Part shown: piece by piece, positions 10,201-50,270 of the stretch
Layout: each line of letters begins with the position of its first letter
Numbering within the stretch: the stretch's first letter is position 1
Assembly: GCA_020152595.1 (NCBI GenBank)
Contig: JAIGNY010002805.1
Coordinates: 303,501 to 367,500 of the forward strand
Reading direction: 5' to 3'
DNA length: 64,000 nt
Source of the DNA: Chiridota heheva
Taxonomy: Eukaryota > Echinodermata > Holothuroidea > Apodida > Chiridotidae
Notes under the pieces: model-generated
Seen by the model: only the letters and a program-made list of their open reading frames with translations
What the model was told of the DNA's origin: nothing
Databases searched by the model: none
Translations under genes and position numbers: made by a program

Positions 10201-10210
10201 AATAAGAGGG

Positions 10211-11771
<1,561 letters not shown>

Positions 11772-14845: not shown

Positions 14846-14944
14846 ATGAGCTTGAATGTTTGGCATTGCTCCTTTCTTTAATAGCTCCATGACGACCTCA
14901 GCATGACCTTTGTAGCTTGCCCACATCAACGCTGTCCAGCCATT
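14846..14944 (-). CDS. Ankyrin-repeat exon, Kidins220/ARMS-like, third exon
   Basis: Third 99-nt phase-0 exon on the minus strand. The acceptor is a pyrimidine-rich CATTTTGACAG and the donor a perfect GTAAGT. The translation begins NGWTALMWASYKGHAEVV and ends KKGAMPNIQAH. The GWTALMWA-YKG stretch is the most diagnostic part: it closely matches the fourth ankyrin repeat of Kidins220/ARMS as I remember it. A naive reading frame runs on past the donor into a leucine/serine-rich stretch; that part is intronic minisatellite, not protein. The intron before this exon is 25.4 kb (14945-40330). The following exon was looked for down to position 1 and not found. Confidence 0.9.
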
Positions 14945-16341
14945 CTGTCAAAATGAAAAGAGAGAAATGATGTAAAATACCGGTAGATGATCATAATTTG
15001 GATCATTCCTTTGAGTGTATGCATGGGCCGGCAGTAGTCTCTTCCTCTTTCATGCTTATGACCCATGTGGCTGAACCAGCCTATTACCATGCTTATGACC
15101 CATGTGGCTGAACAAGCTATTACTCAAGACAACATATCCTCTTAAACATATTTACTACAGCGCGAAAATCATTTATTTTACATGATAAAATATATATATA
15201 GGTATAACAACTTCCAATATCAACATCAAATATATTCAAGATATTCAAACTTGATAAATGAAACCTCATTTTATTTCAAGGTCAATCAAAAGTTAATTTG
15301 GTGAATTGATAAATTGAGAAATTGATGAATTCCTAATGAAATGGTTTGTGTATCCTATTAAAGCAGAACCGCTGATCAAGCTTCAAAAGATCACATCCAA
15401 ACAAACTGATAATACCTTGAAACTTCAAGCTCAACTGACGTATCCAAAAACACGCCGGAAAATAAAATAATCTTACAACTGAAAAATTGCTTTTTCCCCA
15501 GATTTAAAAAAAAAGTAGCACACGTTATAATCGTTATAATCGTAGTGCTTGAGTAGATTGAGCAAGAAATGTTACAAAAGTGCAATAATAAGAACATACT
15601 CTACATCTCCAAATTAAAAGAAGAAAACTAATCTTTCTCCTTTTTCCTTTTATGGCCTTGGATTCCATTATCAAGATCTTAATGAAGTGACGTGTGAAAT
15701 CTTCAGCTTGTTATGAAAATCTAGAATAAAAGAAACACAATCGATTATCCAGGTTGTTTTTACTTCCAAACCAGGTATTTCCTTAAAACCTGTCAAATCT
15801 AATTACAAAAGAGCTTCCTTTATATCATCACGAGAAAGAACGGGTGAAAATCTATACTCTTTCAGCGGACACTTAAGGATTAATTAAATACTCTTGAGTA
15901 TTTTTACATTTAAGGTGATCTTTTTCAAGTTTGTTCACCATGAAGCCTACGGCATATTCTAAGCTATTAATAGAGCTGGGATGGACTAAAGACCATATTT
16001 GCTGTTTATAGATAAAAAAAGAATAGAATTTAAAGAGATACTTTGAAAATCTTGAAAGAAAAAACATAATGTGATATTAATTACACCAGGCGAAGCAGCT
16101 TCGTTTTCATTTTTTAAATTTTATTTTATACAATTTTTAGTCATCTCTCTCATTTCTGTTTATTCTAGTTTTGGATTTGATTTTATGCATGCAACTTTGT
16201 AGAGTACTTTCTTTACACGTTTTAGTTTCCTTTTACCATACTTCAAACATAAAAAATTAACTTAAAGTATTTGTTGTTGTTGCGCCAATGATTGACATCT
16301 GCTGATCTACAGCATTGCTACCTCTAAGTATTCTCATTCTG
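14945..16341. other. Intron stretch with a 37-bp tandem duplication
   Basis: At 15051-15123 a 37-bp segment starting CATGCTTATGACCCATGTGG occurs twice. The rest is AT-rich and featureless. Confidence 0.6.
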
Positions 16342-16672
16342 ATGACTTATATACTCTATATGACTTATATACTCTATATGACTTATATACTCTATATGAC
16401 TTATATACTCTATATGACTTATATACTTGTATACTCTATATGACTTATATACTCTATATGACTTATATACTTATATATGACTTCTATGACTTATATACTC
16501 TATATGACTTGTATACTCCATGACTTGTATACTCTATATGACTTGTATACTCTATATGACTTATATACTTGTATACTCTATATGACTTATATACTCTATA
16601 TGACTTATAAACTCTATATGACTTGTATACTCTATATGACTTATATACTCTATATGACTTATAAACTCTATA
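16342..16672. repeat. 18-bp minisatellite, about 18 copies
   Basis: Unit TGACTTATATACTCTATA with TTGTAT and truncated variants. Confidence 0.95.
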
Positions 16673-16730
16673 TTATACATAATCCAAATTGTACTTGATT
16701 ATGTAAATTTATATTTAAACTCCTAGTACA

Positions 16731-17303
16731 TTTAAAGGATTAGGTCAGTGGTCAAGCATGTCCATCTTATATGAAGGAGGACTTCAAAAGAAACAAAATG
16801 GTGAAAAAAGCCTTCACAAATCTTATTCCATTAAGGAAATATTCAAGTTTAAAGTTGGGTATTATTTCTGTAGGAACGACTGAAATCAGACTACTTGTGG
16901 TGTCACAGCCTCAGATTCCTCAAAATCTTCATATATTTTAAATAAAATTTTATTTCATTTTTTCACTATTTCAATTATTTTTCCTCAACTTTCTTCATGT
17001 GGTATATTATAAATATTCTTCCTAGATTCAGTTTTACTACTTTTTTGATATATCCCATGGTCTTTAAGCCACAAAATCGCAGAACAAAATATGATAGAAT
17101 ACCTAAAAGACTGAGGAATCTGAGGCTATGACATCACAACTAGTCTGATTTCAGTTGTTTCTACACAAATGATACCAAACTTTAAACATAGATATCTCCT
17201 TAACGGAATAAGATTTTTGAATGGTTTCTTCACTATTTTGTTTCTTTTGAAGTCGTTGTTGATATAAGATAGACTTGCTTGACCACTGAACTTATCCTTT
17301 AAA
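16731..17303. mobile_element. 573-bp long-TIR element, TTTAAAGG ends
   Basis: Arms 16731-16927 and 17105-17303 are inverted, diverged copies of about 197-199 bp. The outer ends read TTTAAAGGAT and ATCCTTTAAA; inner landmarks AGATTCCTCA and TGAGGAATCT mirror each other. The spacer is about 177 bp with no transposase. A 113-codon minus-strand frame overlaps the right arm and has no domain. Confidence 0.8.
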
Positions 17304-17921
17304 TTTACACTTGAATGTGTCAATTTGAAATGAAATTGACCCTGAGATGATATACGTGGAAATTTTGTTTTCATATCCAGAGATGGCAATTTTTGTTTAC
17401 CTTTCTTCAAGTGGTAAATTATAATCACCTGAGAAATTATGCAAGATTGAAATGAACAATATCCCACTTGTTTTGACCGTGACAGCGGGGGGCATTATAT
17501 CGGTGTAATGCCCTGTGATAGTGCTCTGGTAATAATGTACTTGTGGACTGACTCACTTTATTTGGGGGGAATTTGAAATTACATAACGCTATGTATTTAA
17601 TTCTTATGTTTTTATGGTAATTAATATGTATTGTTCTATATAACTTAATATTTAAATCCAATTCATATTTGTTTGTTTGTTGAGGCTTAACTATGTTGTC
17701 AATGATATTTTGATTTGATATTTAATTGCTGTTTAATTTTGCTCACCCATTTTTGGAAATGGAACATTCCTTTCATATGAATTATTAAATAGATTAGTTC
17801 ATTTTTTATATGGATTTGTTTTGCAAAAGTTTTGAAATTAAAGGTGTTTTTAATTCGAAAATAAATATCTAAATTTCATTTTTGAGGAATTTTAAAGTAA
17901 AAAGTAATTGAAATTTGATAA
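17304..17921. other. Non-coding AT-rich stretch
   Basis: No repeat or gene recognised. Confidence 0.5.
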
Positions 17922-18092
17922 AAAGATAAATTTTCTGGCATCGTGTTTATATTCTCCTAAAATGCCCAGGTCAAATGACTTTGCCCTCAAAATGGCCCAC
18001 CTAAATAAAGTCAGGCTATTCCACTCGGGCCAAATTCCTTTGACCTGGGCATTATAGGAATATATAAACAAGATGCCAGAAAATTAATCTTT
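17922..18092. repeat. 171-bp inverted repeat with 62-bp arms
   Basis: Left arm 17922-17983 and right arm 18031-18092 are near-perfect reverse complements (landmarks AATTTTCTGGCATC and GATGCCAGAAAATT, ATGCCCAGGTCAAA and TTTGACCTGGGCAT). The loop is 47 bp. A strong hairpin or small foldback MITE. Confidence 0.85.
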
Positions 18093-18318
18093 AACTATCT
18101 TAACAATCACAACGACCAAATCCAAAAGCCTGTGACTTCTTACTACCGTAACCATAGCTTATTTTATGATCAACCACGCCTTATAATCCTCTTTACTTCA
18201 AAAGTGCAGTTCAAACATCAACTCACAACAACTCACAACACCGTAGCTGCATTCCACTTTTACCATGTCGGTGGTAAAGCTACCAATTTTCATTACGGAA
18301 GCTACTATTGGTCGCTTC

Positions 18319-18900
18319 TTAAAGGAATATTCCCATGTTTTTTCGTAGCCTTTCATAAGAAAGAGAACAAAATTTAGAAACAATTTTGTACAAAAATCAT
18401 GTTGATAGAAAAATCATTCCTAGAAAGAGATATTTAAATTTAAGGGTCACAAAAAATGCCACAAACAAATATGAAAAAAGGCTCAGTATGACATCATAGC
18501 AACACATTCTCCCACAGAGTTGATGTATTTCATTAAAATCTATCATCCTTTTTTTATTAGTAAAAACTGCTAGAAAAATAAATTGATGAAAATTCGGTAT
18601 TTAAATACATTGCCAAATATACCCAACTTCAATAACTTTTAAAACATTGTTTCTAATCATACAGAAACAACCAATTAACATTCAAGGAAATACATAAACA
18701 TTTGCAATGGAATTGTCTCTATGACATCATCAAACGTGAATTCATCATACTGTACAAAAACTTTAAAATGCAATTGGGAAATCTTAAATAATCTATATTT
18801 CCTGAACAGAATATGATTTCTGTACCAAATTGTCTCTAAAAGTATGCTCTTTCAAATAACATTTTACAACAAAAGAAAAACCATGGGAATATTCCTTTAA
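18319..18900. mobile_element. 582-bp TIR element, TTAAAGGAATATTCCCATG
   Basis: Perfect 19-bp terminal inverted repeats, TTAAAGGAATATTCCCATG at 18319-18337 and its complement at 18882-18900; partial inverted similarity continues inward (CTTTCATAAGAAAGAG against CTCTTTCAAATAAC). The outermost TTAA on both sides could be a piggyBac-type target duplication. No transposase frame, so a non-autonomous element. Confidence 0.75.
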
Positions 18901-19796
18901 TACAGTACCAATCCTGTTTTTTCATCAGTGAGTGAGGTGTCGAATGAATCCCCACATGTTTACCAAACATACTGTTAAATTTGCGGAGGGCAAATATGTA
19001 TTTTGTCTTTCGGAAGTGAAGGCATGAGCACAGCAAGAAGGTTTTACTTGGATCATGAATTCATATGAGAGAAACAAAAGAGATTTAATTAGCTGTCAAG
19101 CTTTATTAAACTTTTACTGAGTTTTTCTGAGTTTCTTTTAATTAGGTTCAGGTTCTCATGTTGTCTAGTATCACAATGTCAAAAGTCAGTGCCAGCGAGG
19201 TTTTAAGTAATTCCCCAACCTCCCTCCCTTTTGTTTGTAAATAATGTATATAATACTTTGTTCAGTTTTTGTTAAATTGCCGTTTGTTTAGGTGTATTAT
19301 GTTTTGTTTTTCTTTCCTCTAATACACATGATTTACCTCTAAACTAATCCTTCAAGCGCAGGCCCAGCATGACCATGCAAAATTTACAGCAAGAAATTAT
19401 GTAAACATGGATTTACATGGATTAATGGTACTGCATGGTGTCCAGAATATAATGAAAGTTAGATGTGCAAAACGCTACATGCAGTCAAGTATAATCTAAA
19501 TTCATAGAGCATGAAACTTTCTCTCTTCTTTCATATCATCGTTCCTCAAATTATTTTCTTACTTGGAAGTGTTTAATCAAAAAGTTTGTGGTGGTGGTGT
19601 GGAAAAAGATGATGAAAAAACCTGAGCATTTAATAAACCTGATCATGCTGGGAAAATGAGGTTATGAATTCAAATAACATAGTGCACTGATACGTATGAC
19701 CCAGATAACAACCAGAGCATGTAACATGGAAAGAGGTATAACTTTGACCTAGTTCCAGGAGTTTCCCTTGGTGTCTAAAACAAAGCTTAATACGGT
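18901..19796. other. Non-coding stretch, nothing recognised
   Basis: Unique AT-rich sequence with no frames of interest. Confidence 0.5.
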
Positions 19797-20560
19797 GTAT
19801 AATTGCCAGTGGCATCAATGGGGGGGGGAGGGGCGGCACGGGGGACACATGCCCCTCAAATTTTGCTGCCCCCCGCCCCCACATGACAAACCGGAACTAA
19901 CATTTTCACAGATGACTTCTATTTCAAACGTTATTCATAGGTCCTAGTAGTTAGGTATTCAATGTTCTAATGTTTAAATTAATACAAGAAAAGCCTTATT
20001 TTGGTCAGTGATTTTGCAGCCATTTTGGGTCATCAAAACCATGAAGTCTTCATAGCTTCTGGAGCTTCGCCCCTGGACCCTGATTTAATGCCTGAATTGT
20101 CTGAACTTTCAGGGGAAATTATTTTCTGACTGTTTACTGGTTTAGAAATGGTAACCCAAATGATTATCTTAGTTGATATAGTCTAAATTTCTTCTTTAAA
20201 TCAATTTCAGTTTTAAAAATTGATTTAAATCCATTTTGGGGCATCAAAATGAAACAATTCTGCAGAGCTACAGAGGCTTCATCACAGGACCCCAGTTTGG
20301 ACCCAAATGATCTCAATTTTCAAGGGAAAGTTGCTTCTCTACCTGATTAGAAATGGTAACCAAAATGTTTTTCTGAGTTCATTTAACATTGAATCTAAAA
20401 TAAATTCCAGGGGCTTTGCCCCCCTGGACACCTACCAGGGTTTGACCCCCGGACCCCACCCAGGGCCCTTAAGCCATGCCAGTACATGCAAGCTTCGCGT
20501 ATGCAGTGTAGCCAAAAGACAGTACTTTTATAGCCCAGCCCCCTCCCTATTTTCAAAAGA
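19797..20560. repeat. Old interspersed repeat with GGGG/CCCC ends
   Basis: Starts near GCCAGTGGCATCAATGGGGG. Two diverged direct sub-repeats of roughly 215 bp (about 19990-20200 and 20210-20400) share CCATTTTGGG-CATCAAAA, TTTAGAAATGGTAACC and CAAGGGAAA-like motifs. It ends in GGCTTTGCCCCCCTGGAC and CCCCCGGACCCCACCC. Likely a degraded transposon; class not determined. Confidence 0.55.
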
Positions 20561-20599
20561 ATCTCTGGCAATGCCCTGATAAATGCTGAAAACAACATT

Positions 20600-20715
20600 A
20601 TTTTGAGCAAAGGCTGGGTGGGGGAGGGGCGGGGGGAGGTGCGGGACGGGGAGAAGGCGGGCGGGGAGAAGTAGGGCAAGGAGGAGCAGGGCGGGTGTGG
20701 GCAGGGCGGGGAGAA
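20600..20715. repeat. G-rich, quadruplex-prone tract
   Basis: Dense G-runs on the plus strand (GGGGGAGGGGCGGGGGGAGG and similar, about 20621-20640), repeating GGCGGGGAGAAG near 20660 and 20706. It has many runs of three or more G at short spacing. Confidence 0.85.
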
Positions 20716-20921
20716 ATCAAATGTTGCAGACAAAATGTACACCATTTTGATTGTTACTAAGCTTGTGATTTCCCACATGAACTTTTGAGCATACAGATGG
20801 ATTAAGTATTTGAATGCAGGCATATATCTTGTACCTCAAGAATAAGTAAGCCAAGCTCTGGGTACTTTTATCTTTTCCTTACAAGCACAGGAGTACATCA
20901 AAGAAAAGCACAGGAGTGCAT

Positions 20922-21161
20922 CGAAGAAAAGCACAGGAAGTAATAACATGATACATGTGCCTTTATCAAACATGTTTATCCTTTATCAATGAACTGATCA
21001 AAGCTGTAGGTCAATTCTAATTTTGAAGTACTGCCGAAGAAAAGCACAGGAAGTAATAACATGATACATGTGCCTTTATCAAACACAAAGTTTATCATGA
21101 AGTGTGTGAATCAATGAACTGATCAAAGCTGTAGGTCAATTCTAATTTTGAAGTACTGCCC
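20922..21161. repeat. Tandem duplication, 113- and 127-bp copies
   Basis: CGAAGAAAAGCACAGGAAGT begins copies at 20922 and 21035. Both contain GATCAAAGCTGTAGGTCAAT and end GAAGTACTGCC. The second has an insertion around ACACAAAGTTTATCATGAAG. Confidence 0.9.
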
Positions 21162-21230
21162 CCATAAAAACAAGGTAAGATATGATAATGCTTTTTGCAA
21201 TAGGAATATTGAGCCCAATTTTTCTTAATG

Positions 21231-22563
21231 GTATATGATGGCATGATGATGTAGCAAGGGTCTATATTTATGCATATTAGTGTGGTATATGATGGGCATT
21301 AGCAAAGAGTCTATATTTATGCATATTAGTGTGGTATATGATGGGCATGTAGCAAAGAGTCTATATTTATGCATATTAGTGTGGTATATAGGCATGTAGC
21401 AAGAGTCTATATTTATGCATATTAGTGTGGTATATGATGGGCATGTAGCAAAGAGTCTATACTTATGCATATTAGTGTGGTATATGATGGGCATGAAGCA
21501 AAGAGTCTATATTTATGCACATTAGTGTGGTATGTGATGGGCATGTAGCAACGAGTCTATATTTATGCATATTAGTGTGGTATATGGGCATGTAGCAAGA
21601 GTCTATATTTATGCATATTAGTGTGGTATATGATAGGCATGTAGCAAAGAGTCTATATTTATGCATATTAGTGTGGTATATGATGGGCATGTAGCAAGAG
21701 TCTATATTTATGCATATTAGTGTGGTATATGATGGGCATGTAGCAAGAGTCTATATTTATGAATATTAGTGTGGTAAATGATAAGCATGTAGCAAGAGTC
21801 TATATTTATGAATATTAGTGTGGTATATGATAGGCATGTAGCAAGGATCTATATTTATGCATATCAGTATGGTTTATGATAGGCATGCATGTAGCAAGAG
21901 TCTATATTTATGCATATTAGTGTGGTATATGATGGGCATGTAGCAAGAGTCTATATTTATGCATATTAGTGTGGTATATGATGGGCATGTAGCAAGAGTC
22001 TATATTTATGCATATTAGTGTGGTATATGATGAGCATGTAGCAAAGAGTCTATATTTATGCATATTAGTGTGGTATATGATAGGCATGTAGCAAAGAGTC
22101 TATATTTATGCATATTAGTGTGGTATATGATGGGCATGTAGCAAGAGTCTATATTTATTCATACTAGTGTGGTATATGATGAGCATGTAGCAAAGAGTCT
22201 ATATTTATGCATAGTAGTGTGGTGTTTGATGGGCATGTAGCAAGAGTCTATATTTATGCATATTAGTGTAGTATATGATGGGCATGTAGCAAGAGTCTAT
22301 ATTTATGCATATTAGTGTGGTATATGATAGGCATGTAGCAAAGAGTATATTTATGCATATTAGTGTGGTATATGATGGGCATGTAGCAAGAGTCTATATT
22401 TATGCATATTAGTGTGGTATATGATAGGCATGTAGCAAGAGTCTATATTTATGCATATTAGTGTGGTATATGATAGGCATGTAGCAAGAGTCTATATTTG
22501 TGTATTTAAGTGTGGTATATGATGGGCATATAGCAAGAGTCTATATTCATGCATATTAGTGTG
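21231..22563. repeat. 49-bp minisatellite, about 27 copies
   Basis: Unit includes GGGCATGTAGCAAGAGTCTA, TATTTATGCATATTAGTGTG and GTATATGAT. AAGAG/AAAGAG variation makes 49- and 50-bp copies. Minus-strand frames of 72 and 89 codons are artefacts. Confidence 0.96.
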
Positions 22564-24623
<2,060 letters not shown>

Positions 24624-24626
<3 letters not shown>

Positions 24627-25661
24627 AGGTATCAGTACCATCACATGCAAAAAGAAGGCCTATTTAATTATTGAGGGTGCTTCATGCTAATATGCCATCA
24701 TATTATATAGCCAAGTGCTTCTTCAATTACCCATTAAAAAGAACATACAAATTATGCAAAAACGGTCTTTAGGATTTGGAGGTATCATATTTAGTTCATG
24801 CATGGAGATAGAACTAACAAACTATAACTCTATGGTTCATGGGTGTTATCTTGAGGGTTTCTCACAGTATGCAAATTAGTTGTGATGTAAGAATTGTCAA
24901 ACATATCCCATTATCTGCCCTTGCATACAGAATTAATGTCATCTTACAACAAGATCTACATGGCATGCAAATTATCATCTGCCACTGTAAGGGAATTTGA
25001 ATTTTCTAATATATCACTCAAAATAACATTAGTTGTTTTGCTCCTTAAAGTTTCAAACAGTCAGACCCGACCTGATACATAACCAGGTCGGGTCAGATTT
25101 TTCCTCTTAATCTTCTTTATTCTGAAAACCTTAGTTGTTGTGGAAGTTGGTGCTGAGTATCATGTTAGCAATGGATGAAGTCCTTATTGTGTGGTTATTT
25201 TAATTAAGATAAAGTGGTCTCACTATTTGCTACAGTAAGTTTGTGGTTATGATTTGCTGGAACAAATTTTTAAGGAGAAGGACAAGTCATGAAGGGCATG
25301 GAACATATGACCAAAGTAAAATTTGAACTCTTTACCATAAATGCATCATGTGATTTGCAGTACAGAAAAACTATTCACCAAAGGTTTGTCCATGCAATTT
25401 TGATTTATTTCTTCTTTTTTGATTTGATAGTTTCATTGTTCCCTAAAGCAAGGAGGAAGGAAGTTTCTCTGTGTTCATAGTTCTTACTTATCTCAATGAA
25501 TGCAGTTCACATCAGTGCTCTAATAAACATGGCAATGGGTAAGTTTACCAGTATGTACACAAGGGGATGGGAACGGAATTCAGCTGTCCTAGCTTTGCAA
25601 GCTCCCTCTTAATCATTTCATCCGAACTGGAAATTGAAAGCAAACAGCACAGATGAAGAAG
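24624..25661. other. Intron stretch holding copy 1 of a 270-bp direct repeat
   Basis: Copy 1 lies at about 25024-25290 (landmarks CTCCTTAAAGTTTCAAA, AGCAATGGATGAAGT, ATTTGCTGGAACAAATTTTT). It is matched by 31191-31537. The rest is AT-rich with no gene seen. Confidence 0.75.
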
Positions 25662-27757
25662 AGGAGATCGGAAAATGATTGGAATGATGAAAGGAGGGAA
25701 AGGGGAAGTGGTGGTAAAAATGATTGGAATGATGGAGAGAGGGAAAAAGAAAGTGGTGGTCAAAATGATTGGAATGATGGACGGATGGAAAGGGAAAGTG
25801 GTGGTCAAAATGATTGGAATGATGGAGAGAGGGAAAGGGGAAGTGGTGGTCAAAATGATTGAAATGATGAAGAGAGGGAAAGGGAAAGTGGTGGTCAAAA
25901 TGATTGGAATGATGGAGAGAGGGAAAGGGAAAGTGGTGGTCAAAATGATTGGAATGATGGAGAGAGGGAAAGGGAAAGTGGTGGTCAAAATGATTGGAAT
26001 GGTGGGAGGTGGGAAAGGGGAAGTGGTGGTCAAAATGATTGGAATGATGGGATGGATGGAAAGGGGAAGTGGTGGTCAAAATGATTTGAATGATGGAGGA
26101 ATGGAAAGGGGAAGTGGTGGTCAAAATGATTGGAATGATGGAGAGAGGGAAAGGGAAAGTGGTGGTCAAAATGATTTGAATGATGGAGGGAGGAAAAGGG
26201 GAAGTGGTGGTCAAAATGATTGGAATGATGGAGAGAGGGAAAGGGAAAGTGGTAGTCAAATTGATTAGAATGATGGAGAGAGGGAAAGGGAAAGTGGTGG
26301 TCAAATTGATTAGAATGATGGAGAGAAGGAAAGGGGAAGTGGTGGTCAAAATGATTGGAATGATGGAAGGAGGGAAATGGGAAGTGGTGGTCAAAATGAT
26401 TGGAATGATAGGACGAATGGAAAGGGGAAAGTGGTGATCAAAATGCTTGGAATGATGGAGGAAGGGAAAGGGAAAGTGGTGGTCAAAATGATTGGAATGA
26501 TGGACGGATGGAAAGGGAAAGTGGTGGTCAAAATGATTGGAATGATGGAGGGAGGGAAAGGGGAAGTGGTGGTCAAAATGATTGGAATGATGGAAGGAGG
26601 GAAAGGGGAAGTGGTGGTCAAAATGTTTGGAATGATGAAGGGAGGGAAAGGGGAAGTGGTGGTCAAAATGATTGGAATGATGGAGGGAGGGAAAGGGGAA
26701 GTGGTGGTCAAAATGTTTGGAATGATGAAGGGAGGGAAAGGGGAAGTGGTGGTCAAAATGATCGGAATGATGGAGGAAGGGAACGGGGAAGTGGTGGTCA
26801 AAATGATTGGAATGATGGAGGGAAGAAAAGAAAAATTGGTGGTCAAAATGATTGGAATGATGGGACGGATAGAAAGGGGAAGTGGTGGTCAAAATGATTG
26901 GAATGATGGAGGGAGGAAAAGGGTAAGTGGTGGTAAAAATGATAAGAATGAAGGAGAGAGGGAAAGGGGAAGTGGTGGTTAAAATGATTGGAATGATGGT
27001 GGTCAAAATGATTGGAATGATGGGAGGGAAGAAAAGAGGAAGTGGTGGTCAAAAAAATGATTGGTCAAAAATGGAATGGGGAGGGAAGGAAAGGAAGGTC
27101 AAAAGAATGGACGGAGTGTGGTCAAAATGATTGGAATGTGGTTCAAAATGATTGGAATGATGGTTAAAATGATTGGAATGATGGAGAAAGAGAAAGGGGA
27201 AGTGGTGGTCAAAATGATTGGAATGGTGGGAGGGAAGGAAAGAGGAAGTGGTGGTCAAAATGATTGGAATGATGGACGGATGGAAAGAGGAAGTGGTGGT
27301 CAAAATGATTGGAATGATGGAGGGAGGAAAAGAGGAAGTGGTGGTCAAAATGATTGGAATGGTGGGAGGGAAGGAAAGAGGAAGTGGTGGTCAAAATGAT
27401 TGGAATGATGGACGGATGGAAAGAGGAAGTGGTGGTCAAAATGATTGGAATGATGGAGGGATAGAAAGGGGAAGTGGTGGTCAAAATAATTGGAATGATG
27501 AAGGGAGAGAAAGGGGTAGTGGTGGTCAAAATGATTGGAATGGTGAGAGGAAATGAAAGAGGAAGTGGTGGTCAAAATAATTGGAATGATGGACGGATGG
27601 AAAGAGGAAAGTGGTGGTCAAAATGATTGGAATGATGGAGGGAGGGAAAGGGAAAGTGGTGGTCAAAATGATTGGAATGATGGACGGATGGAAAGAGGAA
27701 GTGGTGGTCAAAATAATTGGAATGATGGAGGGAGGGAAAGAGGAAGTGGTGGTCATT
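25662..27757. repeat. 45-bp minisatellite, about 46 copies
   Basis: Unit contains AAGTGGTGGTCAAAATGATT, then GGAATGATGGAGGGAGGGAA, then AGGGG. The plus strand has almost no C (about one per unit), so the strands are strongly asymmetric. 27045-27180 is a diverged, shortened patch. The unit length is divisible by three, which keeps several frames open on both strands (up to 462 codons); none has domain or homology support. Confidence 0.96.
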
Positions 27758-31001: not shown

Positions 31002-31190
31002 GAACAGGCGGTTGTTTAGAGCCTCGTATCAAGTTCATTGACATAACTAGAATCAGAGATTGAACGGAAATGGTTAGAGAAAGTGAAACAAAATTGGTCC
31101 AAGACAGCCTGTCAGAAACTGTCCGCAATGGTCAGAATATGCCAGATCATCTCATATTCAGGTTTTTCTCCCTTTTTTCATAAGTGTCAG

Positions 31191-34434: not shown

Positions 34435-34436
34435 AG

Positions 34437-38810: not shown

Positions 38811-39055
38811 TAACCAAGCTGGATGTTGGGCCACCACCACTGATAACTTTATGGCAAGCTCTCTCCACTTCTCATGCTTCTCCGATGCTCTCTGGGATGT
38901 TCTGAAGCTCAACCCCGGTCCACTCTTTGATGTTATCCTCCCATTTTTTCCCTTGTCTGCCTCTCATTCTACTTTGTGGCAAGGTGCCTTGCAGGATTGT
39001 CCAGTCCAGTCCATCTAGAGGCATGACCATACCATCTCAACTTTCATCCTTTTTA
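38811..39055 (-). pseudogene. LINE 3'-end fragment, minus strand
   Basis: The minus-strand translation gives broken pieces LRWYGHASRWTGLDNPARHL and WEDNIKEWTGVELQNI-like, then GGGPTSSL. This is the conserved C-terminal tail of a widespread LINE reverse-transcriptase family (LRW-GH...WEDNI-EWTG). Frameshifted and stop-containing. Confidence 0.8.
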
Positions 39056-39063
39056 CAGTTGAC

Positions 39064-39510
39064 AGAGATCTCCATAGCGACCGAAGGACATCAAATCCAC
39101 TATAACATCGCCATCAGCAGAAGGTCTCCAGAGCAACCAAAGGTCATCAAATCCACTGTAGCATCGCCATCAGCAGAAGGTCTCCATAGCGACCAAAGGC
39201 CATCAAATCCACTGTAGCATCGCCATCAGCAGGTCTCCAAAGGGACCAAAGGCCATCAAATTTACTGTAGCATCGCCATCAGCAGGTCTCCATAGCAATC
39301 TTCTAAGGCCATCAAATCCACTGTAACATCGTCATCAGCAGGTCTTCATTCACCAAAGGCCATCAAATCCACTGTAGCATCGCCATCAGCAGAAGGTCTC
39401 CATAGCGACCAAAGGCCATCAAATCCACTGTAGCATCGCTATCAGCAGAAGGTCTCCATAGCAATCAAAGGCCATCAAATCCACTGTAACATCGTCATCA
39501 GCACAAAAGG
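39064..39510. repeat. 56-bp minisatellite, about 8 copies
   Basis: Unit contains CAAAGGCCATCAAATCCACT, GTAGCATCGCCATCAGCAGA and AGGTCTCCATAGCGAC. Some copies lack 3-5 bp (AGCAGGTCTCC). It sits between two LINE fragments. Confidence 0.93.
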
Positions 39511-39514
39511 CAGA

Positions 39515-39690
39515 CTGATGTGTTCTCTAGTGACATCAGTTTTCCTCTATGCATGTGAGATATGGACCTTAAATGCAGAATCCAGGCCATGGAGATGAGA
39601 TACTATCGCAAAATCATAAAAAATCTCATACAAGGACCATGTAACTAACGATGAAGTCTGCAGCATATTCAATAAGCCATTGGGCCCTTT
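39515..39690 (+). pseudogene. LINE fragment, plus strand
   Basis: Plus-strand translation LVTSVFLYACEIWTLNAES, then ISYKDHVTNDEVC. This is the region of the same LINE family that precedes the LRW-GH tail. It is in the opposite orientation to the fragment at 38811-39055. Confidence 0.8.
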
Positions 39691-39732
39691 GAACGCCTTC
39701 TGTGTGGTTTTAGTAGATAAGAATAATGGAAC

Positions 39733-40312
39733 TTAAAGGAGAAATAAAGTCTCACACAATCCTTAATCCACACGATAGAGGATTCAAATCTAAACCAACT
39801 TCCAAGTCAAAATCTATCAAGTTATTCAGGTTTGAAGATGACACATGGAGGCTGCCATTTTGTTCAATTCTGTATTGAAATCTTCTGCATGATGAAACTA
39901 TTTCCCCAACAGGGACAAGAACTATAATGCATTTCTTTATCAAATGTGTTCAAGTTTTTATTCCAAACTGATGTGACATAAAGTTTTAACAGCATGTTTG
40001 GATAATTTCATGTATAGTCTACACAAAAATGTCCTTGACACTAATAACAAAAAGAAAACAATTTTTCATCAGCTAGAAAACTTGAGATGAATTATAAAGA
40101 AATACAAAGCATTCCAATATCCTGTTGGGTTGATGACATCATTTTCTGCATCTTCTAAAATCAAAATGGTGGCTCCCATAGTAGTAGCTTTAGTTTTAAT
40201 TATTACAAAATTGTTAGATTGCTTTGGGAGGTATGAAACTTGGTCAGAAGATTTGTTATTTTTAATTATATAATATGAATTAAGGATTGTCAAACTTTAT
40301 GTACCCTTTTAA
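39733..40312. mobile_element. 580-bp TIR element ending 18 bp from an exon
   Basis: Imperfect inverted ends: TTAAAGGAGAAATAAAGTCT...CAATCCTTAA on the left, TTAAGGATTGTCAAACTTTA...CCCTTTTAA on the right. No transposase. Size and TTAAAGG end resemble the elements at 16731 and 18319. Its right end lies in intron sequence just after the middle exon's donor (gene on the minus strand). Confidence 0.65.
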
Positions 40313-40330
40313 ATATCACGACTAACTCAC

Positions 40331-40429
40331 CACATCAGTATGGTCAATATCTGATCCCTTGTCCACCAGTGCTCTGACTATGTCCAAATGTCCTTCTCTT
40401 GCTGCAAATATTAATGGGGTCCATTTGTC
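40331..40429 (-). CDS. Ankyrin-repeat exon, Kidins220/ARMS-like, middle exon
   Basis: Second 99-nt phase-0 exon of the minus-strand gene. The acceptor reads TTTTGTTTTAG and the donor GTGAGTTAG. The translation begins DKWTPLIFAAREGHLDIV and ends DKGSDIDHTDV, a complete ankyrin repeat with the TPLI turn, AA-x-EGH and VRALVDKG. It fits the third repeat of Kidins220, which has a -NWTALI- start, -KEGH- and a final -HRD-. The intron before it (40430-50171, 9,742 bp) carries several repeats. An inverted-repeat element ends 18 bp beyond its donor. Because the exon is 99 nt and phase 0, skipping it would remove one repeat without changing the frame. Confidence 0.87.
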
Positions 40430-40766
40430 CTAAAACAAAAGAAAGAAAGATGGCCAAATTAAAAATATAAGAATGAAATGAAAAACAGTGAATCCATTTT
40501 AAGTCCTTGTTAGTAAAGATTAGAAAACAAAGACTTTCTAAGAATATATGAGAAAGAAAACCTGGGGACTGGATGTGACTTCACAAACTAAGACCTTAAC
40601 TAAGAATTAGCTGGAAAGTGATACCAAAATTGCAACTAACTATGATAGTAATTCATAAAAAGTTTAAGCTTTTAAGATAATCTGATCATACCCAATGTCA
40701 TGATGACATCACATCTAAGGAAAAATATCAGTCATTTATATTAGAGAATGCAGGATACTAATAACA
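40430..40766. other. Intron stretch upstream of the middle exon
   Basis: Unique AT-rich sequence with ATGATGACATCACATC near 40700. Nothing coding. Confidence 0.5.
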
Positions 40767-41694
40767 CCAGTGATCACCAATTTGCATAACTTATATACTT
40801 CAGTGATCATCAATTTGGATAATTCATATACTCCAGTGACCATCAATTTGGATAATTTATATACTCCAGTCATCATCAATTTGCATAATTTATATACTCC
40901 AGCCATCATCAATTTGCATAATTTATATACTCCAGTGATCATCAATTTGCATAATTTATATACTTCAGTGATCATCAATTTGCATAATTTATATACTCCA
41001 GTGATCATCAATTTGCAAAATTTAAATACTCCAGTGATCATCAATTTGCATAATCTATATACTCCAGTCATCAATTTGGATAATCTATATACTCCGGTGA
41101 TCATCAATTTGCATATTTCATATACTCCAGTGATCATCAATTTGCATAATGTATACTCCAGTGATCATTAATTTGTATACTCCAGTCATCATCAATTTGC
41201 ATAATTTATATACTCCAGTGATCATCAATTTGCATAATGTATACTAGAGTGATCATCAATTTACAAAATTTAAACACTCCAGTGACCATCAATTTGCATA
41301 ATTTATATACTCCAGTGATCATCAATTTGCATAATCTATATACTCCAGTGATCATCAATTTGCATAATTTATATACTCCAGTCATCAATTTGCATAATTT
41401 ATATACTCCAGTGATCATCAATTTGCATATTTTATATATTCCAGTGATCATCAATTTGCATAATGTATACTCCAGTGATCATCAATTTGCATAATTTATT
41501 TACTCCAGTGATCATTAATTTGGATAATCTATATACTCCAGTGACCATCAATTTGGATTATCTATATACTCCAGTGATCAATTTGGATAATCTATATACT
41601 CCAGTCATCAATTTGAATTATCTATATACTCCAGTGATCATCAATTTGCATAATTGATATACTCCAGTAATCATCAATTTGCATGAAGTAAAAA
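40767..41694. repeat. 33-bp minisatellite with POU octamers, about 28 copies
   Basis: Unit contains CCAGTGATCATCAATTTGCA followed by TAATTTATATACT. I count 19 copies with an intact ATTTGCAT (complement of ATGCAAAT, the POU/Oct octamer); the others have ATTTGGAT or similar. Divisible by three, so frames on both strands are open; these are artefacts. It begins about 340 bp upstream of the middle exon's acceptor. Confidence 0.95.
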
Positions 41695-42465
41695 AATACA
41701 ACTAGACCCTGAAAAGTGGCAAAGCAGGTCTTTTGGCTAATGGGCATTTTGGCAATTAAAGGCCATGAACACATCACTATGGTAATATTCAGAACCCCTA
41801 AAGTCTAGATTTTGTTAGCTAACTGTGGGTTAATTCCTCCTATTGTTGCGCCCAAGTCAATTTCAATGGCTGTGAAATGAGTAAATTTATCAATTTCTGA
41901 GCAAATACATTTTTCTCTGATTTTCAATCATTTCAAAAGAACTTTGATAACTGAATACAGTGTCCATGCCTACTGTAGCTGTGCACGTCTAAATAAGTAC
42001 ACTGAAAATAAATACATTGCGACAAAAAATGCATTGCCACTCAAAAAAATTCATTGCCTGTAAATTTAGTTTTAAGCCACAACTATAAATCAAGCTGTCA
42101 ACCACATGAATATATATCACTCCATAAAGATTAAAACACTTTGGTTGAAAACATTTCTAAAAGATGAGGTAGTGATATGGCGCGTGACACATGGTGAGTG
42201 CTGTCAATTCCTATAGATTGTAGATGACCAGATAATCCTAATTAATGTAAAGAGACCGCTATTTTGGGCATGCATGTATATATGGTTGTTAACACATTGA
42301 TGTCAACAGCATATATTGGTTTATCTTATACTTCTTTATCAACTAAATCAAATTCTTTTTGTTTATCAAGACTATTTTAGATAGTTATGAACTGCAAGCT
42401 TTTAAGGCAATATGTATTCTCTCAATTTTCCATTATCGATGCAGAATTATTACATTATCCTATAT
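41695..42465. other. Non-coding stretch, nothing recognised
   Basis: Unique AT-rich sequence. Confidence 0.5.
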
Positions 42466-43237
42466 ACCGTATTTGACTTAATAAGTACCCCAGCCAGACC
42501 CCTAGCTTGATTTTAAAAGAAGCAGGGTGCTAGACTTGTTATGGGGCACATTAATGCACACGAGAAGTGCTGCATCTTTTCGGCATGGAGTCCAGGGGCT
42601 CAATCCCATAGTGAAGAAGCTCTGGGATTTTAGCTATAATCATACCTCAGAATAAAACTATTTTGATTGATAAGAACCACTCATGAGCCAAACAGGACAA
42701 TTGCTTACTATGCCATCATTCTGTGTTCTGTATCCATGTAAGGTATTTCATTTATGAGGTTAATTAAGATTATTATGTTTTTAAAAATTAGAAAATCTTA
42801 AAAACAAATATACATTCTCACGAGGGGCAGAGGGGACCCAGGGGGGCAGAGCGGACCTCCATGAGGGCAGGGCGGGCCAACGGAGGGGCAGGGTGGGCCG
42901 CCCCTGTAAAACAACAAAGCTAGGGTCTGCCAGCAATTACGAAAATAAAATTGCACACTTTTTAAGTCCACCTTTATTCCTAATAAAATAAGCACCCATG
43001 CTCAGGGGTCGCATACAGAGACTGTGCTATTCAAACTGCCCTGCATACATGTTAACTGGTATACAAGCCCCACAATAACCAACACAAAAGCATCGTGAGC
43101 ATCACATGCAAAATAAGCAAAGTTTGTAGCAACTTGAGTTTAAATCTTCAAATTATCAAATGAATTAGGTTATCAGTCAAAAAATGTTGGGTGGGCGCTA
43201 ATATTAAAGCAGGGGTCTAAAATACGTCGAATACGGT
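42466..43237. mobile_element. 772-bp MITE-like element, ACCGTATT ends
   Basis: The left end ACCGTATTTGACTTAATAAG and the right end reading inward (ACCGTATTCGACGTATTTTA) form imperfect terminal inverted repeats. Near both ends is a GGGGTCT/AGACCCC pair. 42820-42905 holds a G-rich internal repeat (GAGGGCAGGGCGGGCC type). No transposase frame. Confidence 0.7.
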
Positions 43238-44226
43238 GTATTATATGTTAGACATACATTAGAGATATTAACATTTAAATTAAAAAGAATGCATGTATGT
43301 CTTTTCTGTATATCCTAACAATGAAGTGATGAACTTCCACCTTTTAAGCACTTACATATAAAAAGAAAATACTTAGAATCAATCAAAACTCAAGAATTTA
43401 AAACTTAGAATTTAATTTACTAAACACAAGAAAAAGCTTGTCCCTCCCGTCCCTCTGTCCCACACACACCCAAGGCTTCACGAACAACCACCAAAGCTGT
43501 AAGCAAGAAATTGCACATTAATAAATTACTTGTGTACATCCAACATCATCATCTCTTACATTACCAGTATGCAATTATATGTTAATGCTTATTACACTTT
43601 AATGTTCAGCTGTCACTCAATGACATTCTTGCTAAAGGTGGTTTGATTTAACTACTGATGATATCTTTGATTTCATCAGCCTGCATTCAACAGCAAGAAC
43701 ATATAAGACTCTCTACCGGAGAAGTTATCTTGTATTTAAATATCTTATTGATAAGAAGGATGAACAGGAAAATGAAAATACCTAGAGCAGTGAAATTTCA
43801 AACCGTCAATTCCGTCAAGATTTGAGAGGAAAATAATTGTGAGGGAGATGGTTTACTATGTTCTTTGTACATTTACTATGTTCTTTGTACAATGTGTCTA
43901 ATGAACAGGATTATGCAGGGATGAGCAACCGAGGATTTAAACAACAGATACTATTTTCACAACTGCAGTGTCAATGTAAGCTTACTTTAAGGGTGAATGT
44001 GACTGTGGGATACTGAGGAGGAACAGACTTCGCAAAAAATGGTCATCCCAAAAAAGATGTTTCCTGTTTGTTATCATTTGATAAAGTCATTTCATTTTGG
44101 TTTGGGTGGGGTGTGGGGGAGAGTGTGTTCATGATGAAGCCTCAGCCTTCCTGCAATGGTAATAGCTGCCCCAACTGCTGGCAGATCAACGTAAAGAGAC
44201 TTCCAGAGTAAACTAATCAAAGCTGT
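43238..44226. other. Non-coding stretch
   Basis: Small duplication TTTACTATGTTCTTTGTACA at 43852-43890; otherwise nothing recognised. Confidence 0.5.
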
Positions 44227-44610
44227 GTTAGCACCTGGGAAGTGACATTTGTTAGCACCAGGGAAGTGACACTCCTTAGCACCAGAGAAGTGACACTTGT
44301 TAGCACCAGGGAAGTGACACTTGTTAGCACCAGGGAAGTGACACTTGTTAGCACCAGGGAAGTGACACTTGTTAGCACCAGGGAAGTGACACTTGTTAGC
44401 ACCAGGGAAGTGACACTTGTTAGCACCAGGAAGTGACACTTGTTAGCACCAGGGAAGTGACACTTGGCACCAGGAAGTGACACTTGTTAGCACCAAGGAA
44501 CTTGTGACAAGGAAGTGAGCACCAGGAAAGTGACACTTGTTAACACTAGGGAAGTGACACTTGTTAGCACCAGGGAAGTGACACTTGTTAGCACCAGGAA
44601 GTGACACTTC
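44227..44610. repeat. 24-bp minisatellite, about 16 copies
   Basis: Unit AGTGACACTTGTTAGCACCA plus GGGA; some copies are shortened at the right. Open frames on both strands are artefacts of a unit divisible by three. Confidence 0.95.
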
Positions 44611-47399
44611 GTGTAGCTCCTCTTTCCTGCTAGTACCTAACAATTAAATGAAGTACAGATTAATCTTGGTTAATCTTGAGGAGAACATAGCAATGCATGC
44701 TGATAGATTAACAAACACAACAATTACACCTGGAGTAACTGTGTTTTTCACACCATAGGTGGAGCTATACCCTAATTAACTCTATGATATCCTTGGTGTT
44801 AAAATGATACTAGACCATGAGGGCATACCAGTCTACTCGGGGAAATATCTCTTTTGCATACAGTGGTAGTGAAATATCAATATCAAAACTGAAATCAAAA
44901 TCTGTACATGTTTTTGTATTGCAATCATATTTGAATTGGTATCAAAAGTGATTGAAAACTGACTGGTTTGCAACTTTTCAAGTTTCCAGGCCTGATGCCA
45001 TTTTGTCCAAGTTCTCCTATTTCAGTGAAGCCAAAAGTTGACGCCCCATAATGGCACATATATTTGATTAATATCTACTACTTCAAATATATCAAAAACA
45101 TACATGCAGAAAAGTTTCTCTTTAAGCCTACCCGCACCCGACACCTGAGTTAACCCTATAATATCGCCGTTTTAAAACTACTTTTTTTCCAAAAATAAAA
45201 TCGGGACCTTACCAAAATTATATTGGGGTGCAAATAGTTTTATTGCAAAGATCTCGGAAAGATCTTTCATAAAATTGTATTTTTTTGGGGTCTATACTCA
45301 CTTTTTTTGGCAAATTTTGTCCAAACATTCAGAAATTTCACTTTTTGTTTAAAATGTCCCGAAAAATGCACATTTTAAAAAAAAATTACAAAAATTGCTT
45401 AGAAAATAATTTTAGATATTTTCTTTATAGATATTTAATATGAACACAAGTCATATTGTCCAAATCTAATCACATTTTGCTCATACCTGGTCATTATTTT
45501 TAAATTATTTGTAAAATATGTAACATTTTGTGATTTTTAGTAATTTTTTGACCCTTTTTGTTAAAAACTCATGTGATCCACCCCTATATCGAAATGAAAA
45601 GTTTCAAACACCATTCTGTAGGAAAAACATAGTGCTTTTACATGAATTGCTGCAATAAAAGACATACCTCCGCAATCATTGCTAAAACGTTTTATAGCTA
45701 CGTCACTCGAATTACTTTCAGATTTTTTTTTAATTTACATTGAGACGACAGAAGAATGTGTATCCCGAATCTTGTTTGAAAGTGAAACTGAGGATTAGGA
45801 AATTTCAGAAGGCTATCGCCGGTGATGGAGATCTTTAAGTACCTGGACCCAACCCAGAAGAGGTCTAAAGATTTTCAGAACCAAGTGAAATGATTTTTTT
45901 TTTTCAAATTGCCTAAATCGCAAGTGCATTTTTCAAACTTCATGCTTACTAACATTACTCTTTAGGCTTAACGCTAGGCATAGCTAATGTTAGTTCCGAT
46001 CCGTTCAAAATTAAGCAAAAACAGAGTAATTTAGCTAGGATTATTTACTTGTAAGGATTATAAACAAGTAAATGGGTCACTAAAATCCAACGTGATTAAC
46101 ATAAATAGTCTTTATTATAGTAATTTTAGATGAAACTTTACAGATCAATCTTTAATTTGTAGTGCAACAGTGCCAATGCATATACCTATTTTGCGAATTC
46201 TTGATTCCATGTTGTGAGGTTGTAGTGCAGTGGAATAGGATTCAAATTTATGGGAAAAGGGTCCCATGTTGTTGGAAAGAGACACATGTTGGGGCAAGAG
46301 ACCAATGGTGGGGGCCAAGCTGTCCCATGTAGGAGGAAATCATTTTCTTTGAAACAATTTGGATCCTGGAAGAGGGCCATATTTATTTATTTTTTATTAT
46401 TATTATTATTAATTTTTTTGAGGGGGTGGCATTTCCCTGGTTCCTTCTCCCAATATAAATATGCCAGAACCCCCACCCAGCCCCCAACCCCTGTATTTCC
46501 TTGGAAACAGTTGAAATTATATTTCTCTGAAGGATTTTCCTGTATTTGGACAAATTTGTTGACATTCCATATGCGGCACCAACTGTCACTAAAGCCTTTG
46601 AAGGATACAAAGTTTGGCAACGTCAACATGATTACTGATGCTTTGAACCATTTTTAAGTACCTTTTCACCGAGAATTCCTACAGGAATCAATAAAAGTAA
46701 CTTTCTACAAGACTTTCAGTATATCCTGAATAAATATAAGTATTTTCAAAGCTTCCAATGACTAAAATTGGCTCATAAACTGAAAATTTCAAGCCTGTGC
46801 ATAATAAATGAGGTAGATTAGGTAATTTGCATATCATTTGCATAACATTTTATTAAAATATTGGTGTAAACATTTTTTTATATTATATTAGTTTTGTGCA
46901 TCCTAGAAAGGAACAATGCATGTTTATGGGAAAGTATAGTGCCAAATCCTATCAGATAGGTCATTGGCAAAATCAGAGGTCAATTTTTAGGCCAAAAGTC
47001 AACAAAATTAAAATTGACATATGAATTTTTTTCTTGCTCCAAAAAAATCAAGAGTACTATTAAATAAAAGGTCCTTCTTTCAACAATTCATCAATTCTAT
47101 CAATAATTTTTCTTTCTAATTAGCCACAAAAAAGCAGAATATCACAAAGATAGCAGTTTTAGGACATCTTATAATCTGAATCAATAACCTCATTTGCAAA
47201 AATTTGCAAATTCACCAGAGAATTATGCAAACCAAAGTAAACTTCAAAGTCTTAGCTTCCATATAACATAAACTTATTACAGTAGAAAATGAAGATAAAT
47301 TTGTGAAAAAGCCCCCTTTCCAAAAAGTTCCTAAAATAACACTTGTAATCTCAAATGCTCTGGTAGAGTAAGGGTTAATCCTGAAGAGTCAGGTATGAC
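44611..47399. other. Long non-coding intron stretch
   Basis: AT-rich. 46384-46412 is an AAT/ATT microsatellite. 45000-45880 is T-rich with possible old-transposon sequence. Overlapping frames at 46250-46657 (135 codons) and 46383-46629 are low-complexity and unconvincing. Confidence 0.5.
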
Positions 47400-48250
47400 A
47401 ATTACCAACCCGACTTCCTGTTCAGTGTATTGTGTTTCCACTCAAAACAATGATTGTTTATCTGCCATCTACATGTACATCATAGCAAATTAGCCCAAGG
47501 CTATTTGTGTGGATAAGATTACACAAAGCCAGAGCTGAATAATCAAGGCACTTTTGTGATTGAAATCACTCATCCGTGTTAGGTGCCTTAGTGGGAGAAA
47601 CTGGTGATAAAAATAGCTGTGTATCATAATGCCTGGGGTAATAATGTGCATTACCTATGAATGATTGATGGACCATTTCTCCTAAGGAAAGATATTGCCT
47701 CATGTATTAACCTTATACAAAAAAAAAGACCTCCATGTAATAAAGCTTTCATTAAAGAAACAAACATTCAAAACACATAATGCTTCCTCTCCTGCATTGC
47801 TTTCCAATTTGTCCACATTTAATCAAGATACTCATATCAGGGAGCGTTTCGTGATAGCATTGTTACTATCATAGCCGAATACGCAGGCAACGACCCCGTC
47901 ATTGTAATTATGTGTTCACTGGTCGTCCGGAGTGCCTGGACTCCCCTGTTCATATGTGCCTTACAGAGTTTACATGCTTGCCACAGCCATTCTTGGGGAG
48001 ATTAATCATATTCCAGCTTGCAATCACTACAAAGCCTGTGTAAGAAGATAGAACCAACCATGACCAATGTCTGATAACACTAAGTAATTCATCTAATAAT
48101 GCCGATGTGTAAGAGGCTAGACCTAAAAGCCAATTAATGTCCGGATTAAATGTCAGATATTACTAAACACAGACATGAAAGCTAAATTAGGTGCAGGAAA
48201 ACACCAGTGGATGTGCATCAATAAAGCAGTCATTAAGGTTTGCAAAAAGA
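47400..48250. other. Unique, balanced-composition island in the intron
   Basis: Free of repeats and homopolymers and richer in G+C than its neighbours, with CpGs near 47840-47940. It contains GATA-like (GGATAAGATTA) and homeodomain-like motifs. No reading frame of note. Could be a conserved regulatory element; inference only. Confidence 0.35.
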
Positions 48251-48348
48251 AAGCAAAAATATTGAGTATATGTGTGTGATTTTCAAGAATCTGCAGGGGA
48301 ACAATTGAGAAGTAGTTCCAATAGGAAAAATTGCTTCACAGGAATACT

Positions 48349-48541
48349 TGACTTATTGAAGTAAGTGGGCTTTAATGGCTGACTTATTGAAGTAAGTGGG
48401 CTTTATTGGCTGGTGGCACCATCAATCTACAGGGGGAAACAATAAGTGGGCTTTAATGGCTGGTGGGCACCATCAATCTACAGGGGGAACAATAAGTAAG
48501 CTTTAATGGCTGGTGGGCACCATCAATTTACAGGGGGGAAC
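48349..48541. repeat. Short tandem repeats, 34- and 50-bp units
   Basis: TGACTTATTGAAGTAAGTGG occurs twice. Then a 50-bp unit (AATAAGTGGGCTTTAATGGC, TGGTGGGCACCATCAATCTA, CAGGGGGAAC) occurs about three times. Confidence 0.9.
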
Positions 48542-50060
48542 AAAGTGCATGGAAGTTCAATGTAAATATTCTCTTTTAATAGTGCAAAAACACTCAACTT
48601 TTCACCCAATCCACATTTCATATTCCTGCTACAATGAGAGGAGACATTGATTTTTTCAAGTTTTTAGGAGAATTTCTACAAAATTACAATTTTACGGCCA
48701 GTTTCAAGCCATTCTAGGCACTGGGAAATGACATCTATGACTTAATCACCTAGCTATACAGGCTGCCTCCTACAAATACATTTAATCCGAGTGTCAACCG
48801 GGCCAGTCAAAAATCAAAACCAAAACAATTTCCAGATTTGGTCATAGAAATCCACACATCAATGGTGAGTGGCCCATGACATACTACAACCAATATCTCT
48901 CAAATTTACGATCATGGAAGCTCTCATAAGACAAACAGAATGTTTCAAATATCTCTTGGGTATCCATATGAATCACTCACCCTTGAGGACATCTCCACAT
49001 ACTCCAGGTTTTGCATAAGTTAAGTTTAATGTTTGGCTGTACCTGGCATGTATGATGCTTTTACATTGGTAAGACAGTTATAGAAGTTACAGACCTTCAT
49101 CGCTGCCTTTGGTTTTTAACAAATCAAAAACCAAGAAATAATTGAATCTATTTCATGAATCAAATTAAATTGATGGTTCAGGTGGGGTCACGGATAGGGT
49201 TATCAAAAGTTTGAGTATTTTGCCCCGATACCTCAGTTAACTAATATGTATGTCTTCCGGGGAAGAAGGGGAGGGGGGAGAGGGGGGGATATTTCCTTCT
49301 TTTTTTTTTTTTTCTTTTTGCAAACTCACTTGTTTATTTTCTGCCTGAAAAACCAGGGGGGTGTAGCGGGTATGGAAGGGAAAAGGCATAATACAGCAAA
49401 AATGGATAAAGGGGCAGAAAAATAAACAAACAAACAAAAAAGTGGAAATTTGGGCAAGTTTTAAAACTTCAGGAAAATATCTTAAGCTTGGCAAAGGACA
49501 CATACTTATTCAAACCAAATCCTCAGCCAATCAGAGTACAGAGCCTGGGCATAAAATGAAATTCTACAAAAAGTTAGGTTAAAATTACCCATTTATTAAT
49601 TTTTACTATTGACTGATTGATGATAATTGTTGTGCATGCATGTCAACAGTGAAAGCAATCATAATGTGCCGGAAAGGTTAAATAAATCAAACTAACTTAA
49701 AAGGAACTAGTGCATTCAATGCAAAGCTTTACCAAGAGGTGCATTAGAATAAAAAAAAAAGAACTTAGGAGGACATAAGGAGGGAATAGAAATGGAGACT
49801 GCACATGGGGCAGGGAGTTGTCACATGATACTGTTGTATTTAACTTGACATTAAAAGATCTAGAAGCTCTAAAAGGGAGTTACTATGGACGTGTTCCAAG
49901 ATCCATTAAGAGGGGAATAAAAGGTGGTCTGGGGAGGATAGAGAATACAGTCCAGAAGGATGTGTGATCTAGTAATATCACAAATAAAGGTAGCTCTGAT
50001 GTTCAGTAAAACCAATAACCAAAAGTGTTGACACAAAATCGCTCCACAATTTTAAACAGC
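48542..50060. other. Non-coding intron stretch
   Basis: Contains a purine-rich GGGGAGGGGGGAGAGGGGGG tract at about 49269-49288 and a poly-T at 49299-49313. No gene seen. Confidence 0.5.
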
Positions 50061-50070
50061 ATGTTGCCCA

Positions 50071-50101
50071 CTCCCCCCCCCCCTCCCTCTCCCCCCCCCC
50101 C
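50071..50101. repeat. C-run (G-run on gene strand) near a splice donor
   Basis: Two runs of about 10-11 C separated by TCCCTCT. On the gene's strand this is a poly-G tract starting about 70 nt after the donor of the 50172-50270 exon, able to form a quadruplex. Confidence 0.9.
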
Positions 50102-50171
50102 TACAATTTGTAGCATTATATGACTTAAATAGTAGTTGCAAGAAGCCCCCTTTAGGTAAACACTGACTAAC

Positions 50172-50270
50172 CTCATCCATGGCTCTGATGTCCGCATCTC
50201 TCTGCAGCAGTTCTCTCACGAGGTCGATGTTACCAAGCTGTGCTGCACACATCAGAGCTGTCTGCCCGCC
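50172..50270 (-). CDS. Ankyrin-repeat exon, Kidins220/ARMS-like, first exon seen
   Basis: Internal coding exon of 99 nt encoding one 33-residue ankyrin repeat. On the minus strand the acceptor ends TTTGAACAG and the donor begins GTTAGTCAG; both borders are phase 0. The translation starts GGQTALMCAAQLGNIDLV and ends RDADIRAMDE, with the ankyrin hallmarks of a TALM turn, an AA-x-x-GN helix pair and a VRELL second helix. By family knowledge, Kidins220/ARMS is a plasma-membrane scaffold for neurotrophin and other receptors, with N-terminal ankyrin repeats, four membrane spans and a KAP-type NTPase region. This repeat resembles its second repeat (a GQT-PLM start and a GN...V-ELI pattern). No upstream exon was recognised between 50271 and 64000. 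Other multi-ankyrin proteins (ANKS, ANKRD families) remain possible. Exon call very likely; the family assignment is inference from three consecutive repeats. Confidence 0.85.

Follow-up and report, generated by a model that had tools for sequence, protein, structure and literature searches.

The locus considered here, a 64,000-nucleotide stretch of the Chiridota heheva genome (hereafter the window), raises the question of whether three short ankyrin-repeat exons scattered over 35 kb of one strand belong to a single gene and, if so, to a gene of which family. An earlier note on this DNA had described them as phase-0 exons of 99 nucleotides (nt) with proper splice sites, and had proposed that they come from a gene like Kidins220/ARMS, a well-known nerve-cell membrane scaffold. 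Judged from genomic sequence alone, the three exons almost certainly code for ankyrin units 2-4 of a Kidins220/ARMS orthologue. The window corresponds to C2754:303501-367500, in a contig of 462,728 bases from a genome of 1.10 Gb in 3,744 contigs. We examined C2754:143501-457500 around it (25 further 10-kb stretches plus the window) and compared the first 264 kb of this region with a Kidins220 query, the ankyrin part of which was taken from PDB entry 9jxq, chain C.

Recognition of the window exons and their family

The three exons (Table 1) have AG and GT borders, with a polypyrimidine-AG stretch on the acceptor side, and each is recognized by itself by the Pfam Ank model, with 35.6, 37.4 and 37.1 bits for units 2, 3 and 4, respectively, against a cut-off of 21.1 bits; joined together, they reach 100.1 bits. 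This Pfam scan is the independent test of the window exons. A small ankyrin profile run over the six frames of the window gave 67.9-74.0 bits for units 2-4 and 4.9 bits for the next best match, and a second ankyrin profile gave the window exons 52.0, 61.1 and 64.2 bits, the next match in the window 6.5 bits and the best matches in 20 first-order resampled 64-kb sequences 4.5-9.2 bits; as both profiles included the three exons, these figures express contrast and not independent recognition.

The assignment to Kidins220 is carried by the order of the repeats and by the domains encoded downstream of them. When units 2-11, of which units 5-11 lie outside the window, are compared one by one with the repeats of 9jxq chain C, all ten score highest against the repeat of the same number, with 14-23 of 33 residues identical. 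For the window exons the BLOSUM62 scores of the best and the runner-up repeat are 67 versus 59 (unit 2), 84 versus 72 (unit 3) and 94 versus 69 (unit 4). Likewise, the joined units 2-4 align in register with repeats 2-4 of this chain (47 of 99 residues identical, 92.2 bits), as opposed to 37-54 bits elsewhere on it; the fit lies at an offset of 7, and the four other offsets listed, all with scores above 150, give 35-39 identities. Pfam marks 11 Ank stretches on the joined peptides.

Further along the same strand lie two pieces with matches to KAP_NTPase (PF07693; Table 1), followed by a last reading frame with a SAM_KIDINS220 domain (PF23307; 93.6 bits, Pfam cut-off 27), a model that gave a signal, under the cut-off, in one of 14 control genomes. 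Across the genome, the KAP exon query yielded two matches from three candidates, both in the Kidins220 gene, and SAM_KIDINS220 one match from four candidates, again in this gene; in the Pfam family scan one of five peptides was without any family match. Among the 21 coding pieces scanned, 19 lack any hydrophobic stretch, and the remaining two have a pair each (19 residues long, with a Kyte-Doolittle mean of 2.41-3.15); these four putative segments fit the four transmembrane segments of Kidins220 in its KAP region. The last frame ends in ...NHSIV before a TGA stop codon; ligands of PDZ domains follow the rule S-x-hydrophobic at the C-terminus, and this end looks like a putative ligand of that kind.

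The splice borders and the Ank matches agree with the exons as the earlier note had drawn them, and its proposal of a Kidins220/ARMS-like gene is upheld by the KAP and SAM_KIDINS220 domains, the start exon and the position-matched repeats, all on the same strand. Its numbering of the repeats as 2-4 holds once the partial unit at the N-terminus is taken as number 1, the window exons being the first three to carry a complete repeat; by the count of 11 contiguous ankyrin repeats in the available text of a review (PMC4789535), they would be repeats 1-3.

The whole gene and competing readings of it

On the minus strand of the contig the gene presents, in protein order, a start exon, units 2-11, an exon for unit 12 (83% identity to Kidins220 over 58 residues), the KAP pieces and the last frame with SAM_KIDINS220. 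Units 2-11 occupy ten consecutive exons, every one of them of 99 nt and in phase 0. Counted from the start exon, the 12 coding exons up to and including unit 12 are open and all 11 introns between them are of the GT..AG type, measuring, in order, 62,121, 9,742, 25,386, 48,747, 16,453, 6,052, 4,699, 2,437, 3,052, 2,955 and 2,134 nt. ATG and stop are about 212 kb apart, the gene being large because of its introns. One repeat per exon, a frame that survives the skipping of an exon and a very large gene had all been anticipated for the three exons, and the next repeats beyond position 1 of the window, as well as KAP exons further left, turned up on the same strand where the earlier note had suggested looking for them. 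When both strands of the 314 kb examined were searched for additional or duplicated repeat exons, only units 2-11 were recovered, the next score being 10.0 bits; the profile used was trained on units 2-11 and Kidins220, and unit 12 lay below its reach, so a divergent extra exon could escape it.

The start exon (C2754:415892-416005) has 114 nt of coding sequence, encodes MMSSISKASILFSHITNGNTHGAREILRKCEFVDIRDE, and ends, with the phase-0 donor GTCAGT, at the boundary between the Kidins220 N-terminus and unit 2. It is the top tblastn match to that N-terminus in the 314 kb, with all 36 residues aligned, and also the top match, right of unit 2, in a profile search with the N-terminus; of the four profile matches inspected, only this best one had the correct end and donor. 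At the other extreme, the last exon lies within a 604-codon open frame (C2754:203557-205368), which holds both the SAM domain and the C-terminal end and extends upstream of the likely acceptor.

Several observations weigh against a Kidins220 orthologue as the source of the exons, or against the completeness of the model. The start exon is weak by itself (phmmer E 0.23; tblastn E 0.13), its position, phase and donor being further grounds for calling it. Query residues from about 845 to 909 and from 1061 to 1186 are without an assigned exon, leaving the set of KAP and C-terminal exons partial, and the tail beyond the SAM domain gave no clear tblastn match to the Kidins220 query. One KAP piece (222962-223138), as aligned, contains a stop, which lies past a probable GTAAAC donor, and a 5-kb run of N interrupts intron 1. 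With respect to the repeats themselves, five other PDB entries outrank Kidins220 on summed score. Moreover, the best single match in the genome to the Kidins220 ankyrin region is an intronless ankyrin frame on another contig, C1520 (173 bits, 37% identity), which also leads for the joined units 2-4 with 67.7 bits.

A first competing reading would have this locus as a decaying or unexpressed Kidins220 copy, as might be suggested by the very large introns with their tandem and mobile repeats and by the stop in the KAP piece. However, that stop is probably located in the intron behind the donor, no stop interrupts the 604-codon last frame or any of the 12 exons that lead from the start to unit 12, all the introns between those 12 exons are correctly bordered, and the lack of any other KAP or SAM_KIDINS220 match in the genome would make the decayed copy the only one; we therefore regard decay as very improbable.

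Least credible of all, to the point of being nearly negligible, is a derivation of the exons from another ankyrin-repeat gene, of the ANK1-3 kind or coding for some other long ankyrin protein, with a mere resemblance to Kidins220: ankyrin repeats are indeed alike between families, and the joined repeats match 454 distinct PDB sequences with E up to 0.001, but the summed score gives an advantage to repeat-rich proteins, Kidins220 has the highest-scoring single stretch (92.2 bits, versus 47.0-62.4 in the five PDB sequences shown of the 454), ten of ten repeats agree by position, and the KAP_NTPase and SAM_KIDINS220 pieces follow downstream on the same strand. Ankyrins ANK1-3 share with the product of this gene the stacks of 33-residue repeats, and their genes have 99-nt repeat exons; they are not known to have a KAP or SAM_KIDINS220 part. 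An ANK1-3 identity was rejected: for the three ankyrins shown, the best stretches score 47.0-51.3 bits, as against 92.2 for Kidins220.

The frame on C1520 (about 1249510-1251372, plus strand) is an unbroken ankyrin frame of 1,633 codons, separate from the Kidins220 gene, and the genome searches found no KAP and no SAM_KIDINS220 match in it. It scores at the top because it is unsplit, while the Kidins220 gene is cut into 33-residue exons.

Repeats and mobile elements in the window

Within the window, the large introns of the Kidins220 gene carry numerous minisatellites along with some mobile elements.

Table 1. Exons, introns and KAP pieces of the Kidins220 gene in and beyond the window
Feature	Position in window	Position on contig	Strand	Details
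Kidins220 coding exon, ankyrin unit 2 (GGQTALMCAAQLGNIDLVRELLQRDADIRAMDE)	50172..50270	C2754:353672-353770	minus	99 nt, phase 0; acceptor ...TTGAACAG, donor GTTAGT
Kidins220 coding exon, ankyrin unit 3 (DKWTPLIFAAREGHLDIVRALVDKGSDIDHTDV)	40331..40429	C2754:343831-343929	minus	99 nt, phase 0; acceptor ...TTGTTTTAG, donor GTGAGT
Kidins220 coding exon, ankyrin unit 4 (NGWTALMWASYKGHAEVVMELLKKGAMPNIQAH)	14846..14944	C2754:318346-318444	minus	99 nt, phase 0; acceptor ...TTTTGACAG, donor GTAAGT
Intron, units 2-3	40430..50171		minus	9,742 nt; donor GTTAGT, acceptor TTGTTTTAG
Intron, units 3-4	14945..40330		minus	25,386 nt; donor GTGAGT, acceptor TTTTGACAG; minisatellite-rich (tandem arrays)
Window share of intron, unit 4 to unit 5	1..14845		minus	Intron of 48,747 nt; unit 5 exon outside window, C2754:269500-269598
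Window share of intron, start exon to unit 2	50271..64000		minus	Intron of 62,121 nt; start exon outside window, C2754:415892-416005
KAP_NTPase (PF07693) piece		C2754:226161-226307	minus	Pfam 35.4 bits, cut-off 20
KAP_NTPase (PF07693) piece		C2754:220799-221389	minus	Pfam 77.4 bits, cut-off 20

The window has 70 tandem-repeat rows, overlapping rows being counted, with arrays that include the one at 56382-60168 and a 20-nt unit in 190 copies. Between 24 and 28 kb the GC skew is strong (0.556), probably owing to another array, of 45/135 nt at 25672-27755. Two adjoining 300-nt copies at 53633-54232 are 100% identical, as would result from very recent duplication or from an artefact of the assembly. 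A fragment of a reverse transcriptase (34372-34698; Pfam RVT_1 33.9 bits, cut-off 29.6) lies on the plus strand, opposite to the gene, in the intron that separates unit 3 from unit 4.

Further, an element like a short interspersed nuclear element (SINE) is found at 54960-55265 on the minus strand; it has a transfer RNA (tRNA)-like stretch that we take to be a B-box. A genome search with this element returned 4,074 first-look candidates; of these, 40 were scored and all 40 match, the 39 other than the element itself at 85-89% identity. Neither a tRNA (by ARAGORN) nor a known Rfam family was detected in the element, and the window as a whole likewise gave none of either.

Comparison with other members of the family

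The Chiridota gene has in common with mammalian Kidins220/ARMS the start exon, the order of the repeats, the KAP P-loop domain, the four hydrophobic stretches, the SAM-like domain and a hydrophobic C-terminus like a PDZ ligand. It differs from the mammalian protein of 9jxq chain C in about half of the residues of units 2-4, the identity being the 47 of 99 given above. Invertebrate members of the family are already known, kdin-1 of C. elegans being given as the ARMS/KIDINS220 orthologue in the available text of PMC7685709.

Primers listed in the accessible part of PMC4470590 permit a comparison of exon plans. For mouse, the primer placed in exon 3 translates to AAEQGNV, from unit 2, and the reverse primer of exon 8 to GANSMTAL, where units 6 and 7 join; for human, the exon 9 primer translates to GAVRGGH, from unit 9, and the reverse primer of exon 13 to DGDMLGY, at the start of the KAP part. 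By these labels unit 7 corresponds to mouse exon 8, and the exon with which the KAP part begins to human exon 13. The exon numbers of the two species are offset by one, and in mouse as in human the number of exons between the primers is equal to that in the Chiridota gene. Hence, the layout of one repeat per exon is probably common to mammals, as read from primer labels and not from exon lengths or phases. Towards the C-terminus the plans differ: the mouse sequences INGRVL (from the SAM domain), SFEELNT and AQMSQLE are assigned to exons 30, 31 and 32 in the same source (PMC4470590), whereas here one open frame holds the SAM domain and the tail.

Kidins220/ARMS proteins bind receptors and other partners and are phosphorylated by protein kinase D. 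If the product resembles the rest of the family, it would be a membrane scaffold with cytoplasmic tails, of which the N-terminal ankyrin stack may bind cytoskeletal regulators, while the KAP/transmembrane, SAM and PDZ-ligand parts may gather receptors and signalling proteins. The partners named for Kidins220 in the text available of the review are Trio and stathmins for the ankyrin repeats, several PDZ proteins for the C-terminus and Trk receptors for the transmembrane part (PMC4789535).

As the repeat exons are of 99 nt and in phase 0, skipping any one of them drops one repeat and leaves the frame intact. It is conceivable that the ten symmetric exons, with introns of up to 62 kb around them, are used for regulated skipping that generates Kidins220 isoforms with fewer repeats and altered partners; we consider this very unlikely. 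A literature search found nothing on 99-bp or 99-nucleotide ankyrin exons or on Kidins220 exon skipping.

As an orthologue the gene is ordinary: the exon plan of its ankyrin part is conserved, and it owes its size to introns. The sequence-only first reading had obtained both the family and the order of the repeats from 297 coding bases spread across 35 kb. The significance of the locus is mostly one of annotation, in that Chiridota heheva seems to have one intact Kidins220 gene. The exon architecture is not new, since the layout resembles that of mammals as far as the primer labels disclose it, and this sharing suggests that one repeat per exon is an old feature of the family.

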